From assembly GCA_026396385.1 (NCBI GenBank), contig JAPLWV010000027.1, positions 1 through 32,009 of the forward strand: 32,009 nt of DNA, read 5' to 3'. The DNA comes from Microcaldota archaeon (GTDB taxonomy: Archaea; Micrarchaeota; Micrarchaeia; Burarchaeales; Fermentimicrarchaeaceae). The translations under genes were made by a program, and so were the position numbers. Under the pieces are notes generated by a model. It was not told where the DNA came from, searched no databases, and saw only the letters and a list, made by a program, of their open reading frames with translations. Positions 24,721 through 31,438 of the stretch are shown in pieces; position 1 is the first letter of the stretch, and the number at the start of each line of letters is the position of its first letter.

Positions 24721-24822
24721 TCCCGCCAGGGTGATTTGAACACCCAACCATCCGGTTTCTGCTGGAAAAAGCCAGCAATGCAGACTACAGCCGGATGCTC
24801 TACCAAATTGAGCTATGGCGGG
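24721..24822 (-). tRNA. tRNA-Tyr (GTA) with a 28-base intron
   Basis: The 102-base gene gives a 74-base mature tRNA. The acceptor stem is CCCGCCA/TGGCGGG with the C1-G72 pair that marks archaeal tRNA-Tyr, and the discriminator is A. The anticodon stem TCCGG/CCGGA surrounds CTGTAG, the intron, then A, giving loop CTGTAGA and anticodon GTA. The intron (24757-24784) sits after position 37, the usual archaeal site, and contains its own hairpin (TGCTGG/CCAGCA), consistent with a bulge-helix-bulge substrate of the splicing endonuclease. The T arm is GGGTG-TTCAAAT-CACCC. CCA is not encoded. Confidence 0.95.
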
Positions 24823-25274: not shown

Positions 25275-25347
25275 TTTATAAATCTTTGTTTACATAGTTT
25301 AATTGGAACTTAGTAGATACTTTAGGAGTGATGTAAGAGGTGAACTT

Positions 25348-26484
25348 GTGCGTATAGCAATGCTAGGGTGGGAGTTCCCCCCCTTCAAAAGCGGAGGACT
25401 AGGAGTCCATTGCTATGAGTTGACACACGCACTGGCAAACAGAGGAATAGAAGTGGACTTCTACATGCCTAGAACCGAGTTTGAGATGAAGGGAACCACT
25501 CCGAGACTTATCCAAGTAATGCCTGTGCACTTCGGCCCTTACACTGCTAGAGAGACATACGGCGCTGATTTCATGAGTAGAGTTATGCAGTACAACCTGA
25601 AATGTGCGGAGGAAGTTGAGAAGAACAACAGGGAGAGAGAATATGACCTCATACACAATCACGACTGGCTCACCATGAGGGCGGGCATACTCGCAAAACA
25701 GAAAATAAAGAAACCGCATGTAGCCACAGTTCACTCTACCGAATATGATCGCTCTGCCATGGGTGCAAACCAACAGATCCTCGATATCGAAAGAGCCGGC
25801 ATGCATGCAGCTGATAGGGTGATAACTGTCAGCCAAATGATGAAGAAACAGCTAGTGGGTAAATTCGGGATGGACTGCAGCAAGATAAGAGTTATCTACA
25901 ACGGAGTCGACCCAGAGAAGTTCAAGAAGAAATGGGAAGTCAAGAAATATTCGAAAGAGAAGGTAGTGCTGTTCCTAGGCAGAATGGCAGAGCAGAAAGG
26001 GCCTGTGCAATTCCTGCAGACTGCCCAGAAAGTTCTCTCTGCGATGAAAAATGTTAATTTCGTCATGGCAGGTGGGGGCGACATGCTCCCCTACCTCATA
26101 AACTACTCCATTCAACTTGGCATAAGCGACAATGTGACCTTCCTTGGTTATCTTCCCGAGAGCCAGCTCAAGGAAGCATACGCTAAAAGTGATGTGTACG
26201 TACTTCCAAGCGTCTCAGAGCCATTTGGGATAACCGCTCTTGAGGCAATGGCAAGCGGTACTCCAATAATTCTATCAAAAACATCCGGCGTGAGCGAGAT
26301 AACTCCTCACTGCCTGAAGGTTGATTTCTGGGATGTAAACAGGATGGCGGAGGACATCATAGCATTGCTGAAATACAGAGTGCTCAACCACACAATGGGG
26401 ATATATGAAGTAGAGGATGCGAGGAAGTTCAGCTGGGGAAGGGCAGCTGATGAGACGATAGGTGTTTACAGGGAGTTGGTCTGA
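25348..26484 (+). CDS. Glycosyltransferase of the GT4/GT5 (glycogen synthase-like) type
   Basis: A 378-residue GT-B fold enzyme. The N-terminal MLGWEFPPFKSGGLGVHCYELTHAL carries the glycine-rich KSGGLG loop that binds the nucleotide-sugar phosphate. The domain linker and C-terminal half include VLFLGRMAEQKGP and VLPSVSEPFGITALEAMASGTP, with the E-x7-E pair of GT4/GT5 enzymes (E291, E299). GTG 25348 is preferred over TTG 25303 because AAGAGGTGA lies five bases upstream and similarity begins there. Its stop overlaps the ATG of a GH57 gene, so the enzyme most likely works in alpha-glucan (glycogen-type) metabolism. The sugar donor cannot be read from the sequence. Confidence 0.87.
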   Translation: MRIAMLGWEFPPFKSGGLGVHCYELTHALANRGIEVDFYMPRTEFEMKGTTPRLIQVMPVHFGPYTARETYGADFMSRVMQYNLKCAEEVEKNNREREYDLIHNHDWLTMRAGILAKQKIKKPHVATVHSTEYDRSAMGANQQILDIERAGMHAADRVITVSQMMKKQLVGKFGMDCSKIRVIYNGVDPEKFKKKWEVKKYSKEKVVLFLGRMAEQKGPVQFLQTAQKVLSAMKNVNFVMAGGGDMLPYLINYSIQLGISDNVTFLGYLPESQLKEAYAKSDVYVLPSVSEPFGITALEAMASGTPIILSKTSGVSEITPHCLKVDFWDVNRMAEDIIALLKYRVLNHTMGIYEVEDARKFSWGRAADETIGVYRELV

Positions 26485-27692
26485 TGCCGTCGATATGCTT
26501 CTACTTCCAAGTCCACCAGCCTTTGAGAATGAGGCGCTTCTCTATTTTTGAGGATAACAGCGGAGACCCCTATAATCTATACTTCAACGAGAAACTAAAC
26601 CGAGAGGTATTCGAGAAAGTTGCAAGGAAATGTTATCTCCCGGCAAACTCCATCATGCTGGATTTGATAAACAGATTCGACGGAAGATTCAGGATATCAT
26701 ACAGTCTCACAGGAGTATTCCTGGACCAGTGCAGCGAGTTCAACCCAAAGGTGCTGGATTCGTTTGAGGACCTGGCGAAGACCGGATGCGTTGATTTCCT
26801 GGATGAGACATACTACCATTCCCTATGCAGCCTTTTCAAAGACAAGACGGAATTCAAGGAGCAGGTTGAGCTGCACAGGAAAGCTCTTAATTCCCTTTTC
26901 AAATGCAAGCCGGTTGTTTTCAGAAACACTGAGGCTCTCTTCACAAACGACATAGCGAAACTTGTTGAGGATATGGGGTATAAGGGCATGGTGACGGAGG
27001 GTTTTGAGAGAATTCTTGGCTGGAGGAGCCCAGACTACTTATACCGGGTAAAGGGATGCAGTTCAATAAAGGCATTCCTCAGAAACTACAGGTTAAGCGA
27101 TGATGTTGCATACAGATTCTCAGCCCGCTGGTGGAGCGAGTATCCTCTGACTGCTGAAAAATATGCTTCATGGCTCAACAAATCCGAGGGTCCTCTTGTA
27201 AACATATTCATGGATTACGAGACCTTTGGCGAACACCAGTGGGAGGACACCGGCATATTTGAATTCCTGAAGAAAATACCGGAGGAGATATTGAAATATC
27301 CGAACCTTAACTTCAAAACTCCAAGCGAACTTGTCGGAATTGAACCCGTAGGAGAGGTAGATGTGCCGACTCCGCTCTCCTGGGCGGATATGGAAAGAGA
27401 TGCATCGGCGTGGCTTGGTAATGATATGCAGAGAGTTTGCTTCAGAATGCTGGAAGGGCTTGAGCCCATGGTGATGGAAGCAAAGGACGAGAAACTTACC
27501 AGGATATGGAGGCTGCTGCAGAACAGCGACCATCTATACTATCTTTGCACCAAATCATGGGCAGACGGGGATGTGCACAAGTACTTCTCCCCGTTTGATA
27601 CACCCTACGATGGTTTTATCAATTTCATGAATGTGCTTCAGGATGTTAAGTGTAAGCTGAAGGAGAAGTTGAATATTCCTAAGAGGAGGTGA
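26484..27692 (+). CDS. GH57 family alpha-amylase/glucanotransferase
   Basis: A 402-residue glycoside hydrolase of family 57. The conserved start CFYFQVHQPLRM contains the HQP motif, FRNTEALF holds the catalytic nucleophile glutamate (E150), and FMDYETFGEHQW holds the general acid aspartate (D244). The barrel is followed by a helical C-terminal region. Family members hydrolyse or rearrange alpha-1,4 glucans. Translational coupling to the glycosyltransferase (TGATG overlap) suggests the two build and trim one intracellular polymer; no signal peptide is seen, so it should act in the cytosol. GGAGGTGA at its very end is the ribosome site for the next gene. Confidence 0.93.
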   Translation: MPSICFYFQVHQPLRMRRFSIFEDNSGDPYNLYFNEKLNREVFEKVARKCYLPANSIMLDLINRFDGRFRISYSLTGVFLDQCSEFNPKVLDSFEDLAKTGCVDFLDETYYHSLCSLFKDKTEFKEQVELHRKALNSLFKCKPVVFRNTEALFTNDIAKLVEDMGYKGMVTEGFERILGWRSPDYLYRVKGCSSIKAFLRNYRLSDDVAYRFSARWWSEYPLTAEKYASWLNKSEGPLVNIFMDYETFGEHQWEDTGIFEFLKKIPEEILKYPNLNFKTPSELVGIEPVGEVDVPTPLSWADMERDASAWLGNDMQRVCFRMLEGLEPMVMEAKDEKLTRIWRLLQNSDHLYYLCTKSWADGDVHKYFSPFDTPYDGFINFMNVLQDVKCKLKEKLNIPKRR

Positions 27693-27982: not shown

Positions 27983-28528
27983 TTACCCTACAATGGAGTG
28001 TCCTAGGTATGCCAGCACAACACACTTCAGTATATTGCCTGCAAGGCATGCAAACAGAAATTTCCATACAGGATATTCCAATACGCCAGCAGCAATCCCC
28101 GCAACATCAAAGAACGGGTTGGGGAGAGCTGCGAGTATGAAGATTGTTAGAAAGCCATTCCTGCTCATCCATCTTTTTACATTTTTATACATTCCCTTCC
28201 TGTTCTCTTCAATTGCTACTCTGCCACCGCAGCCTACAAAGTAACCGCTGAGCTCGCCCAGCGCACTTCCCATACCGCCTACAATCCCAACATTGAGAGG
28301 GTTTAGAGACATGCCGGCAACGGGAATTCCAATAAGCCCAGGAACAGGCAGCAGAACGGAGGCACTTGATAAAAACATAAGGAGAAAAATGCCGGCATAA
28401 CCAAGCGTATGCAGCCTTTTCATTATGAATTGCATTGGGTTTGCTATGTAGATAAACGCTATCAGAATTATGGCAAGCAGGAGGGCAAACAGCTCCCACC
28501 TGAAAATGTTTTTCTCAGTTCTCCTCAC
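27983..28528 (-). CDS. VTT-domain (DedA/SNARE-associated) membrane protein
   Basis: A 181-residue membrane protein with five to six helices. The VTT/DedA core is visible: LLPVPGLIGIPVAGMSLNP, GSALGELSGYFVGCGG (the GxxxGxxxGY-type re-entrant motif), and FLTIFILAALPNPFFDVAGIAAG, ending in a last helix with GNILKCVVLAYLGH. Members of this superfamily move or scramble lipids, including polyprenyl-phosphate carriers, in bacteria. The archaeal function is not established. The GTG start lies on the transcription start predicted by the shared TATA box at 28549-28558, so the mRNA is probably leaderless. Confidence 0.85.
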   Translation of the reverse strand: MRRTEKNIFRWELFALLLAIILIAFIYIANPMQFIMKRLHTLGYAGIFLLMFLSSASVLLPVPGLIGIPVAGMSLNPLNVGIVGGMGSALGELSGYFVGCGGRVAIEENRKGMYKNVKRWMSRNGFLTIFILAALPNPFFDVAGIAAGVLEYPVWKFLFACLAGNILKCVVLAYLGHSIVG

Positions 28529-28545
28529 AGTATCACTAACAAATA

Positions 28546-28559
28546 CTATTTATATAAGC
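28546..28559. promoter_or_regulatory. TATA box shared by VTT and AAA ATPase genes
   Basis: CTATTTATATAAGC contains TTTATATA for the right-hand gene (start near 28580, six bases before ATG 28586) and CTTATATA for the left-hand gene (start near GTG 28528). Confidence 0.6.
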
Positions 28560-28585
28560 ATTATTAATTACTATTACTAGATCGC

Positions 28586-31438
28586 ATGCCTACAAAGTTT
28601 CTCTCAAAGGACCCTTCAGAAGATACGAAACCTGAGACTACTTTGAAATCTGAAAAATTGAAGACAGGTGAGTTCGAGCCAGTGCTGAACCAGCTCGTTA
28701 AAAAAAGCAAGGGTGGGACGAAGTTCAAATCACTGAAAGATCTCAGGTTCAAGGCAATGCTGAAGGAAGTTGAGGAGAACACTTCATTCGCAAATGCTCT
28801 GCTTGTTATGGCAGGCTGTTTCTTTCTTTTGATAACCTTTCCTCTTTATCCTATCTGGCTGATTCCATTCATACTTCTGCTCGTAGGGTTCATCGCATAC
28901 CACCATGCACCCCTTGGCACTATGGTGAGCACTTTTGTTGCGTTTCCTGCGGTTGCATACCAGTCACCGCTCTTCGCGTGGTTCTTCACAATAGTGATAT
29001 CGCTAACCCTGCTGCTGTCCTTCACATACTGGCATATCATATCATTACTGTTCATACTAATCCTTGCACCTTTCAACTCACTGCTTGGCTTCTTCGTGCC
29101 TCCGCTGCTCATGTTCTCAACCCTCCTCCTAGGTTCTAAGAAGGGCTCATTTGTGACGTTCGTCGCAGTGCTGCTGGTGCTTATATTATCGGTAATGTGG
29201 GGCAGAGGGACTGGATCGGTTGACAACAGCGCATTTATCATATACAACCCGACCGGCAGCAGGCTTGTGGAGCTCTATGACCAAAAAGGGGCGGAGTTCT
29301 CCGCTTTTGCAAAGCGCATAAGCGCGCCAGATGTGAGCGAGCTTGGAAATGCAATGGTGTCAGCTTTCGGAAATCTCTACAAATGGGATAGCATGCAGTA
29401 TACGGGAACTTCAATAGATGCAATAATGAGCGCATTATTCATACTCGCAATAAATGATTCGGCGCTTGTACAACTTTTCTTCTGGACTGCTGCCATGTTC
29501 ATGGCTGGCAGCATATCCGGGCTTCTTGACAGGAGGTACAAGAACTCAATAGCATCAACCTGCTCCCTTCTCATACCAATTGGTTACTGGCTCTCATGCG
29601 CAATATCCGAGCAGACCCCCAACCCCTTTGTTTTCCTGAGCACTTTTCTTGGAATAGCACTTGTCTTCTTCCTCGAGTATAACCATATTGATATATCCAG
29701 GGAGGTTGCGGTGTCAAAGCTGGAGAAGATGGGCAAGTTCAAGAAATTCGGCATACAGGACTTGAGCCTTTCCTCAGGTGTTGAATCCCTTGATGATATT
29801 GGAGATTATGACGAAACCAAGAAGGAGCTTGTTGAAGCAATACTCTGGCCGCTCACAAAAAAGGAGCTTTCAACAGCCTATGGGTTAAAGCCACCGAAAG
29901 GAATTCTTCTCTTCGGTCCCCCGGGAACTGGTAAAACAATGATAATGAGGGCCCTTTCAAGGGAGATGAAGATAGGCTTCTACTACGTGAAATGCAGTGA
30001 CCTGCTCTCGGAGTGGTACGGGGAGAGCGAGAGGAATGTCAGCGAGCTTTTCAGAATAGCTAGGACGACTGCCCCTTGCGTTTTGTTCTTTGATGAGATT
30101 GATGCAATAGGAAGAAGTAGGGACAAATATACGTCTGATGACGTAGCCCCAAGGCTTATGGCTCTTTTCCTTTCCGAGATGGATGGTTTCAAATCCATTA
30201 AGAATGTCATACTAGTTGGTGCCACCAACATGCCCGGGGAGCTGGACAAGGCATTGCTCAGGCCAGGAAGGTTCGACAAGATAATATACACGCCTCTGCC
30301 AGACAAGGAAGGCAGGAAGGAGATATTCAAGATTCACACAAAGAACTTTCCGCTTTGTGATGATATCAATTTTGACAAGCTAGCTGAGAAAACAGGGAGA
30401 TACTCGGGTGCGGACATACAGAACATTTGCATGGAGGCTGCTCGAAAGGTTGCCAAGCTAGCCAGTGAGACCAATGAGGTCATTCCGGTTTCAATGGAGC
30501 ATTTCATGTCTATTCTAAGTACAATAAAGCCCAGCGTCTCCCTATCCGACTTGGAGGAGTATGAAAAGTTCAAGCTGGACTTCGAAAGACGCTCTGCACC
30601 GCAGAAGGAGAAGAGCAGGGCAGAGAAGACAAGATGGGGCGACGTGGTTGGGCTTGATGATGTGAGGCAGCTTCTGGTTGAGGCTATTGAGCTCCCCCTG
30701 CTGCATGAGGATATCCTTAAAGAGTACCATGTCACGCCAATAAAAGGAATCCTGCTTTTCGGTCCTCCAGGATGCGGTAAGACCATGATAGTGAAAGCTG
30801 CATCCAATGAGCTGAACGTTGCCTTCATACACGTAAGCGGTGCTGACCTCATGAAAAGGGGGTATTCGGGTGCAGTAAGTGTGATAAAGGAGAGCTTCAA
30901 CAGGGCAAGGGAGAGGGCTCCTGCATTGGTCTTCATAGATGAGATAGACTCGCTTGCGCCAAGCAGAGATTATTACGCCTCTCCCGAAAACGAGAAGGTT
31001 GTCGCCCAGCTGCTTGATGAGATGGATGGCGTGAGTGAGCTCAAGCAGGTCATGTTCATTGCTGCAACCAACAAGCCTGACAGGATAGACCCTGCGCTTC
31101 TAAGGCCAGGGAGGTTCGATAGGATAATACTGATACCGCCTCCTATGTTTGGGAACAGGAAGAGCATCTTCCAGCTCAACCTTGAGGGAATACCACTTGA
31201 GAAGGATTTCAACTTCGATGCTCTTGCTGCTAAGAGCGAAGGGTTCACGGGTGCCGATATTGCATCAGTATGTCAAGAAGCTAAGATGGACTTGGTGAGG
31301 AGCAAGCTGAGCGGCAGGAAAGCCGCGCTTGCAATGGACAGCATGGAACGCATTATTTCCAAGAGAAGGCCTTCGGTTACAGTGCAGCATCTCCAGACTT
31401 ACATAAAGTTCCTGGAGGAGTATGGAGAAAGAAGATGA
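28586..31438 (+). CDS. Polytopic membrane protein with two CDC48-type AAA ATPase domains
   Basis: A 950-residue protein. Residues 1-69 are hydrophilic. About eight to ten membrane helices span 70-195 and 275-368, with a soluble loop at about 200-275. Two AAA modules follow. AAA-1 has Walker A GPPGTGKT (about 444-451), Walker B VLFFDEIDA, pore-loop region LLSEWYGESE and RPGRFD. AAA-2 has Walker A GPPGCGKT (about 726), Walker B LVFIDEIDS and RPGRFD, but its pore-loop region is ADLMKRGYSGA, without the usual GESE. Both domains should bind and hydrolyse ATP. CDC48/VAT proteins are normally soluble with an N-terminal beta domain, which is replaced here by a membrane domain. It may extract or unfold membrane proteins; no protease domain is attached. 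Confidence 0.88.
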   Translation: MPTKFLSKDPSEDTKPETTLKSEKLKTGEFEPVLNQLVKKSKGGTKFKSLKDLRFKAMLKEVEENTSFANALLVMAGCFFLLITFPLYPIWLIPFILLLVGFIAYHHAPLGTMVSTFVAFPAVAYQSPLFAWFFTIVISLTLLLSFTYWHIISLLFILILAPFNSLLGFFVPPLLMFSTLLLGSKKGSFVTFVAVLLVLILSVMWGRGTGSVDNSAFIIYNPTGSRLVELYDQKGAEFSAFAKRISAPDVSELGNAMVSAFGNLYKWDSMQYTGTSIDAIMSALFILAINDSALVQLFFWTAAMFMAGSISGLLDRRYKNSIASTCSLLIPIGYWLSCAISEQTPNPFVFLSTFLGIALVFFLEYNHIDISREVAVSKLEKMGKFKKFGIQDLSLSSGVESLDDIGDYDETKKELVEAILWPLTKKELSTAYGLKPPKGILLFGPPGTGKTMIMRALSREMKIGFYYVKCSDLLSEWYGESERNVSELFRIARTTAPCVLFFDEIDAIGRSRDKYTSDDVAPRLMALFLSEMDGFKSIKNVILVGATNMPGELDKALLRPGRFDKIIYTPLPDKEGRKEIFKIHTKNFPLCDDINFDKLAEKTGRYSGADIQNICMEAARKVAKLASETNEVIPVSMEHFMSILSTIKPSVSLSDLEEYEKFKLDFERRSAPQKEKSRAEKTRWGDVVGLDDVRQLLVEAIELPLLHEDILKEYHVTPIKGILLFGPPGCGKTMIVKAASNELNVAFIHVSGADLMKRGYSGAVSVIKESFNRARERAPALVFIDEIDSLAPSRDYYASPENEKVVAQLLDEMDGVSELKQVMFIAATNKPDRIDPALLRPGRFDRIILIPPPMFGNRKSIFQLNLEGIPLEKDFNFDALAAKSEGFTGADIASVCQEAKMDLVRSKLSGRKAALAMDSMERIISKRRPSVTVQHLQTYIKFLEEYGERR

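Follow-up and report, generated by a model that had tools for sequence, protein, structure and literature searches.

Gene and protein layout

The window analyzed here, a stretch of 32,009 nucleotides, lies on contig 38 of an archaeal genome of 1.0 Mb that is 97% complete. It contains a single unbroken open reading frame for a protein of 950 amino acids, which is flanked by a divergent gene for a VTT-domain membrane protein and by the start of an S-layer-type gene (Table 1). The protein begins with a lysine-rich tail, continues with about ten hydrophobic helices (amino acids 66 to 365), and ends with two AAA modules. Both modules match the Pfam families AAA and AAA_lid_3 (best E value for PF00004, 1.3e-81) and have intact Walker A, Walker B, sensor-1, and arginine finger residues as well as intact RPGR segments. 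The original prediction, made from the sequence alone, had described membrane helices joined to a double AAA protein, with an aromatic pore loop in AAA-1, KRGYSGA at the same place in AAA-2, and intact Walker motifs and RPGR segments, and all of these features were confirmed.

Table 1. Features of the AAA gene, its product, and the adjoining genes in the window
Feature	Position	Strand	Evidence or remarks
VTT-domain membrane protein, divergent neighbor	27983..28528	-	PF09335, E 2.5e-16
Divergent intergenic region, 57 bp	28529..28585		Sequence; one TATA-like TTTATATAAG
Membrane-embedded tandem AAA ATPase, whole gene	28586..31438	+	Single ORF; homologues of like architecture
Lysine-rich N-terminal tail, aa 1-64	28586..28777	+	AlphaFold2; alignment of family
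Membrane domain, aa 66-365, ten hydrophobic helices (predicted)	28781..29680	+	AlphaFold2, pLDDT 85; conserved columns
Linker helix and KFGxxDL motif, membrane domain to AAA-1, aa 373-400	29702..29785	+	Alignment
AAA-1 module, aa 401-668	29786..30589	+	Pfam AAA and lid; own tree clade, 99/99
AAA-1 Walker A GPPGTGKT, aa 444-451	29915..29938	+	K kept in 39/39 Micrarchaeota
AAA-1 pore loop 1 SEWYGESE, aa 475-482	30008..30031	+	Aromatic in 57/59 family members; intein site between GE and SE in several relatives
AAA-2 module and C-terminal helix, aa 680-950	30623..31435	+	Pfam AAA; own tree group, 98/79
AAA-2 Walker A GPPGCGKT, aa 726-733	30761..30784	+	K kept in 39/39 Micrarchaeota
AAA-2 divergent pore loop KRGYSGA, aa 757-763	30854..30874	+	GE absent in 39/39; double aromatic in 0/39; single aromatic in 24/39
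C-terminal YGER(R) tail, conserved, not HbYX	31421..31435	+	C termini of 39 members
S-layer-type gene start, cut by contig end	31690..32007	+	Cluster c1; S_layer_C PF05124, E 2.6e-17, in complete homologue L021

The N-terminal tail is poorly conserved, with low pLDDT at amino acids 1 to 27 and helices at 30 to 41 and 50 to 64 in the AlphaFold2 model, and is probably cytosolic. Within the linker, residues F385, D392, and L393 are close to invariant across the family alignment. That the N-terminal helices might be a misassembled separate gene was checked and did not hold: full-length homologues of the same order are encoded in most of 60 relatives, a profile of the N-terminal region matched 243 of 295 Micrarchaeota genomes, and hundreds of genomes show this architecture, which rules out a chance fusion or misassembly. 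One apparent split of the gene (G042, locus L044) reflects an assembly gap filled with Ns and not biology.

Distribution and ancestry of the family

Among Micrarchaeota genomes with high completeness and low contamination, the N-terminal profile matched 86 of 96. The micrarchaeal families f10, f14, f16, and f19 appear to be without the gene, and because it is absent from some families, it is not essential across Micrarchaeota. Homologues that align over their full length, membrane domain included, come mostly from Candidatus Micrarchaeota where they are named. The micrarchaeal profile also gave weak matches in two genomes labeled Thermoplasmata/Euryarchaeota, and a search of Thermoplasmatota started from one weak match recovered the membrane domain together with AAA-1 in about 17 of 145 sampled genomes; in many of these proteins, the membrane domain is preceded by a secreted-type ectodomain of approximately 350 amino acids. 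In the Thermoproteota sample of 200 genomes, two encode a full tandem form of 882 amino acids whose AAA-1 falls inside the family clade, and we infer that these genomes are those of Vulcanisaeta distributa and V. souniana. Further weak matches in Thermoproteota (G1018 and G1042) were false positives that resemble solute-binding proteins, and matches in Nanoarchaeota and Asgard genomes (E values of 6e-4 to 2e-6) were treated as noise, as they were short and without the family architecture. None of 197 Halobacteriota and none of 87 Iainarchaeota-type genomes was matched, in runs that carried no positive control.

A maximum-likelihood tree of 90 rows, in which the root was not inferred, placed the AAA-1 modules from three phyla in one group (99/99) and the AAA-2 modules in another (98/79), and both fell outside CDC48 D1 (itself 100/99) and D2. 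This grouping suggests that the tandem pair is probably older than the spread of the family and that the single-AAA members of Thermoplasmatota most likely lost AAA-2, an order of events that is read from an unrooted tree. AAA unfoldases are a known class. The original prediction would have been overturned by an architecture search that led to an already characterized family; no described family with this membrane domain or architecture was found in Pfam, NCBIfam, the PDB, or the open-access papers searched, none of which names the family, and an earlier mention in the subscription literature is possible.

The membrane domain

The N-terminal 399 amino acids were modeled by AlphaFold2 from a 39-sequence alignment with a pLDDT of 85.4 and a pTM of 0.80. 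Ten hydrophobic helices are predicted, not all of which may cross the membrane; short ones, such as that at amino acids 93 to 106, may be half-helices. Conserved positions include YQ (amino acids 125 and 126) and an FYP-type motif (LYP in the window protein, amino acids 87 to 89). In the full-length model, for which the best PDB matches are p97/Cdc48, the placement of the domains is less certain (pTM, 0.55). Searches of Pfam, NCBIfam, and the PDB returned no relatives of the membrane domain, and a fold search of the PDB and BFVD gave no significant match.

Profile comparisons connect the membrane domains of the different phyla. The micrarchaeal and Thermoplasmatota profiles were matched by hhalign with a probability of 99.4% (E value, 5e-21; 300 columns aligned), compared with 0.1% for a VTT profile used as a control, and the match of the presumed Vulcanisaeta domain to the family was weaker (88.7%, 76 columns). 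The same domain was also found on other ATPases in Thermoproteota, namely, on a KaiC-type ATPase (L185:1420-3129; KaiC PF06745 E value, 6.7e-35) and on a possible degenerate relative of that type (L186:604-2352), with membrane domain E values of 3e-20 and 1e-16, respectively, and an hhalign probability of 98.9. In locus L194, a second KaiC-like gene lies directly upstream.

This recombination onto KaiC-type ATPases would be expected if the membrane domain had a sensory or receptor function through which it controlled the ATPase fused to it, whatever its type, making the window protein a signal-responsive ATPase. We regard this as quite improbable, since the KaiC fusion occurs in only 2 of the 200 Thermoproteota genomes and since the strongly kept AAA-1 pore loop of the AAA forms points to threading rather than to switching alone.

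The two ATPase modules

In all 39 micrarchaeal sequences, both modules keep the Walker A lysine, the Walker B aspartate and glutamate, the sensor-1 asparagine, and both arginine fingers. The pore loop of AAA-1 is well conserved: an aromatic residue is found in 57 of 59 family members (37 of 39 Micrarchaeota), GE or GD is present in all 39 Micrarchaeota, and a double aromatic, which is WY in the window protein, occurs in 41 of 59 members, including all 18 from Thermoplasmatota and both presumed Vulcanisaeta copies. The AAA-2 loop, on the other hand, never carries GE or a double aromatic in the 39 Micrarchaeota and has a lone aromatic in 24 of them, and in the presumed Vulcanisaeta copies it reads RVGPERAA, with GE missing in both. 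The divergent AAA-2 loop singled out in the original prediction is therefore real, but it is not peculiar to the window protein. In Thermoplasmatota, AAA-2 is intact in L152 to L155, decayed in L156 (GPPGCGKA and VTDID), a separate reading frame in L167, and absent in L158 to L161, whereas AAA-1 is complete in every member, even where AAA-2 is decayed or gone.

The completeness of AAA-1 throughout, set against an AAA-2 that is without GE, decayed, or lost, suggests that AAA-1 is likely the threading motor and that AAA-2 would be an accessory ring. Divergence of the pore loop in one ring of a pair has a precedent in D1 of eukaryotic p97; here, however, the divergent loop would be in the distal ring. 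Conserved functional sites are the usual place for inteins, and inteins were found between GE and SE of the AAA-1 pore loop in L041, L042, L043, and L064, with a second one beside the AAA-1 Walker B motif in L041 (PF14890, LAGLIDADG; confirmed by Pfam). The decayed AAA-2 of L167 (L167:4932-6023) forms its own open reading frame of 363 amino acids beside the membrane-AAA gene and may represent either a frameshift or a true split.

Comparison with known AAA machines

The closest relatives by both structure and sequence are CDC48, VAT, and p97, with which the window protein shares two tandem AAA modules, their lids, and a C-terminal helix. It differs from CDC48 in that a membrane domain replaces the N domain, which was not matched in any of 39 N-terminal regions, and in that AAA-2, not D1, has the weak pore loop. 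Its score against TIGR01243 (CDC48), 534.6 bits, is below the cutoff of 802.65, and a canonical CDC48 is encoded separately in the same genome (G000:C40). Scores against PAN/proteasomal ATPases (480.2 and 449.3 bits) are likewise below the cutoff of 500. The HbYX motif was not general at the C termini of 39 members, and docking to the proteasome is not indicated because the C terminus, YGERR in the window protein, is not of this type.

Like FtsH, Yme1, and AFG3L2, the protein has an N-terminal membrane segment followed by AAA and presumably acts on membrane proteins, but it has about ten helices instead of two, two AAA modules, and no M41 domain among the matches shown. Like Msp1/ATAD1, it is a membrane-anchored AAA protein without a protease, and the AAA module nearest the membrane has a double aromatic in pore loop 1; Msp1, however, has one helix and one AAA, whereas this family has a second AAA and a membrane domain that is polytopic. 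Archaeal LonB is also a membrane-linked ATP-dependent machine and is found in the same genomes, but it belongs to another AAA class, and no S16 domain was among the matches shown for the window protein. Membership in CDC48, FtsH, Lon, or PAN is thus excluded by cutoffs, domains, and the tree, and the proposal that a multihelix domain occupies the position of the CDC48 N domain in a protein outside CDC48, FtsH, and Lon was supported. Matches to IetA in PADLOC were taken as the generic AAA fold, and an antiphage role was rejected.

A check for FtsH and membrane Lon, suggested at the outset, was made in 60 relatives. The M41 peptidase domain of FtsH was found in none of the 60, while LonB-type (S16) and 20S proteasome genes were found in all of them; in the window's own genome, S16 matches are located at G000:C15 and C51, outside the window protein. 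Around positions 1963-2508 of G000:C15, LonB lies in an open frame of 1,085 amino acids, compared with approximately 650 in most relatives, possibly due to an intein.

Gene neighborhood

The original prediction proposed that the AAA gene shares a promoter with the VTT gene and inferred from this neighbor a role in membrane upkeep. A common promoter is possible in the window, where the divergent gap of 57 bp holds one TATA-like element, but only 7 of 41 micrarchaeal loci have a VTT neighbor; these seven all belong to f1, the family of the window, and in two of them both genes share a strand. An association with VTT as a general rule was therefore rejected. Upkeep of membrane lipids jointly with the VTT protein, which would account for the divergent arrangement and for its preservation in f1, is accordingly very improbable, given the restriction to one family, the changed orientation, and the lack of VTT genes near the other homologues.

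Genes for surface proteins, namely, S-layer, von Willebrand factor type A (vWA), and Ig-repeat proteins, recur across families and phyla. An S-layer-type gene is downstream of or near the AAA gene at 14 of 41 micrarchaeal loci from six families; in the window, it begins 251 bp downstream, preceded by an AT-rich, TATA-like region of its own. In Thermoplasmatota, a recurrent cluster comprises a giant Ig-repeat surface protein, a vWA protein (PF00092), the ectodomain-membrane-AAA protein, and a small three-helix protein. The last of these, a membrane protein of approximately 96 amino acids (L171:10546-10851 and homologues), is encoded directly 3' of the AAA gene at 11 of 18 Thermoplasmatota loci and matched no Pfam family over the cutoff. 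In L162, L163, and L165, separate surface proteins of the ectodomain family that is fused to AAA are encoded upstream, which suggests that fused and unfused versions of one partner exist. No surface genes were recognized by eye alongside the presumed Vulcanisaeta copies.

These neighborhoods could also be read as those of an ATPase for envelope assembly or secretion, which would use ATP to mature, assemble, or export S-layer, Ig-repeat, and vWA proteins and not to extract them for turnover. The Thermoplasmatota cluster, the secreted-type ectodomain of many of its AAA proteins, and the nearby S-layer gene in Micrarchaeota are all consistent with such a role, and an archaeal secretion module of vWA, Ig-like S-layer, and MoxR AAA ATPase (arCOG01314) proteins, in which an AAA ATPase gene is similarly placed beside vWA and Ig-like surface genes, has been predicted (PMC5898192). 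The ATPase described here, however, is of the classical AAA kind, with a membrane domain attached, and not MoxR (AAA_3); the AAA_3 match of the window protein is only 2.9e-5, under its cutoff, so that it is not classed as MoxR type. In addition, AAA-1 has a pore loop of the kind used for threading, and most micrarchaeal loci have no S-layer neighbor. AAA motors with N-terminal membrane anchors pull toward the cytosol, which also counts against export. We therefore consider an assembly or secretion role somewhat unlikely, albeit the strongest of the alternatives.

Proposed function

The reading that we favor, to which we give about even chances, is that of a membrane-embedded AAA unfoldase or dislocase, from an archaeal family distinct from CDC48, that acts on envelope proteins. 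Extraction of membrane proteins, as first suggested for this gene, is a reasonable function because the pore loop of AAA-1 is aromatic like those of Msp1 and Cdc48, both of which are membrane extractors with a double-aromatic loop (PMC7018516); the activity itself is deduced from this likeness. The points that weigh against a dislocase are the partial S-layer link (14 of 41 loci), the separate upstream region of the S-layer gene, the lack of recognizable surface genes beside the presumed Vulcanisaeta copies, the absence of the gene from some micrarchaeal families, and a C terminus that is not HbYX.

By analogy with related AAA proteins, the protein would form a hexamer in which the membrane domains make up a ring in the bilayer over two stacked cytosolic ATPase rings. 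The membrane-proximal AAA-1 would be the motor, its ATP-driven pore loops gripping a polypeptide that arrives either through the membrane domain or alongside it and pulling the chain toward the cytosol, as is done by Msp1, FtsH, and Cdc48. AAA-2 of the window protein would bind and probably hydrolyze ATP without a normal grip on substrate, and it probably stabilizes or times the stack or passes the substrate on. The substrates would most likely be envelope proteins, i.e., S-layer-type proteins, others of the cell surface, or membrane partners of these proteins; they are proposed because the gene neighborhoods hold S-layer, vWA, and Ig-repeat genes, an adjacency that is directly observed, with the encoded proteins as presumptive clients. 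After extraction, a protein could be refolded or passed to the 20S proteasome or LonB.

A path for protein through the membrane domain is a candidate only, as no solved structure resembles this domain. The more specific idea is that the membrane domain works as a retrotranslocation element that conducts protein, with the unfoldase fused directly to it, and acts on S-layer and other surface proteins in FtsH-less archaea; we estimate this to be unlikely. If true, one polypeptide would do the job that is split in ERAD between a Hrd1/Derlin-type channel and Cdc48, and the same element would also have been recombined onto KaiC-type ATPases.

The extraction of membrane and surface proteins in archaea without FtsH is poorly known, and this family, a conserved candidate defined by sequence, may help them to remove or remodel such proteins. 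Its presumed presence in the cultured thermophile Vulcanisaeta means that the protein can be made and tested, and the range of AAA-2 states found in nature (divergent in its loop but intact, decayed, split off, and lost) offers a means of asking what purpose the second ring serves.

Other features of the window

Upstream of the AAA gene, the window contains a glycosyltransferase and GH57 gene pair (25303-27692), and families f1, f7, and f17 keep this pair close to the AAA gene. A 102-base tRNA at 24721-24822 on the minus strand was recognized by Rfam, missed by ARAGORN, and probably contains an intron.
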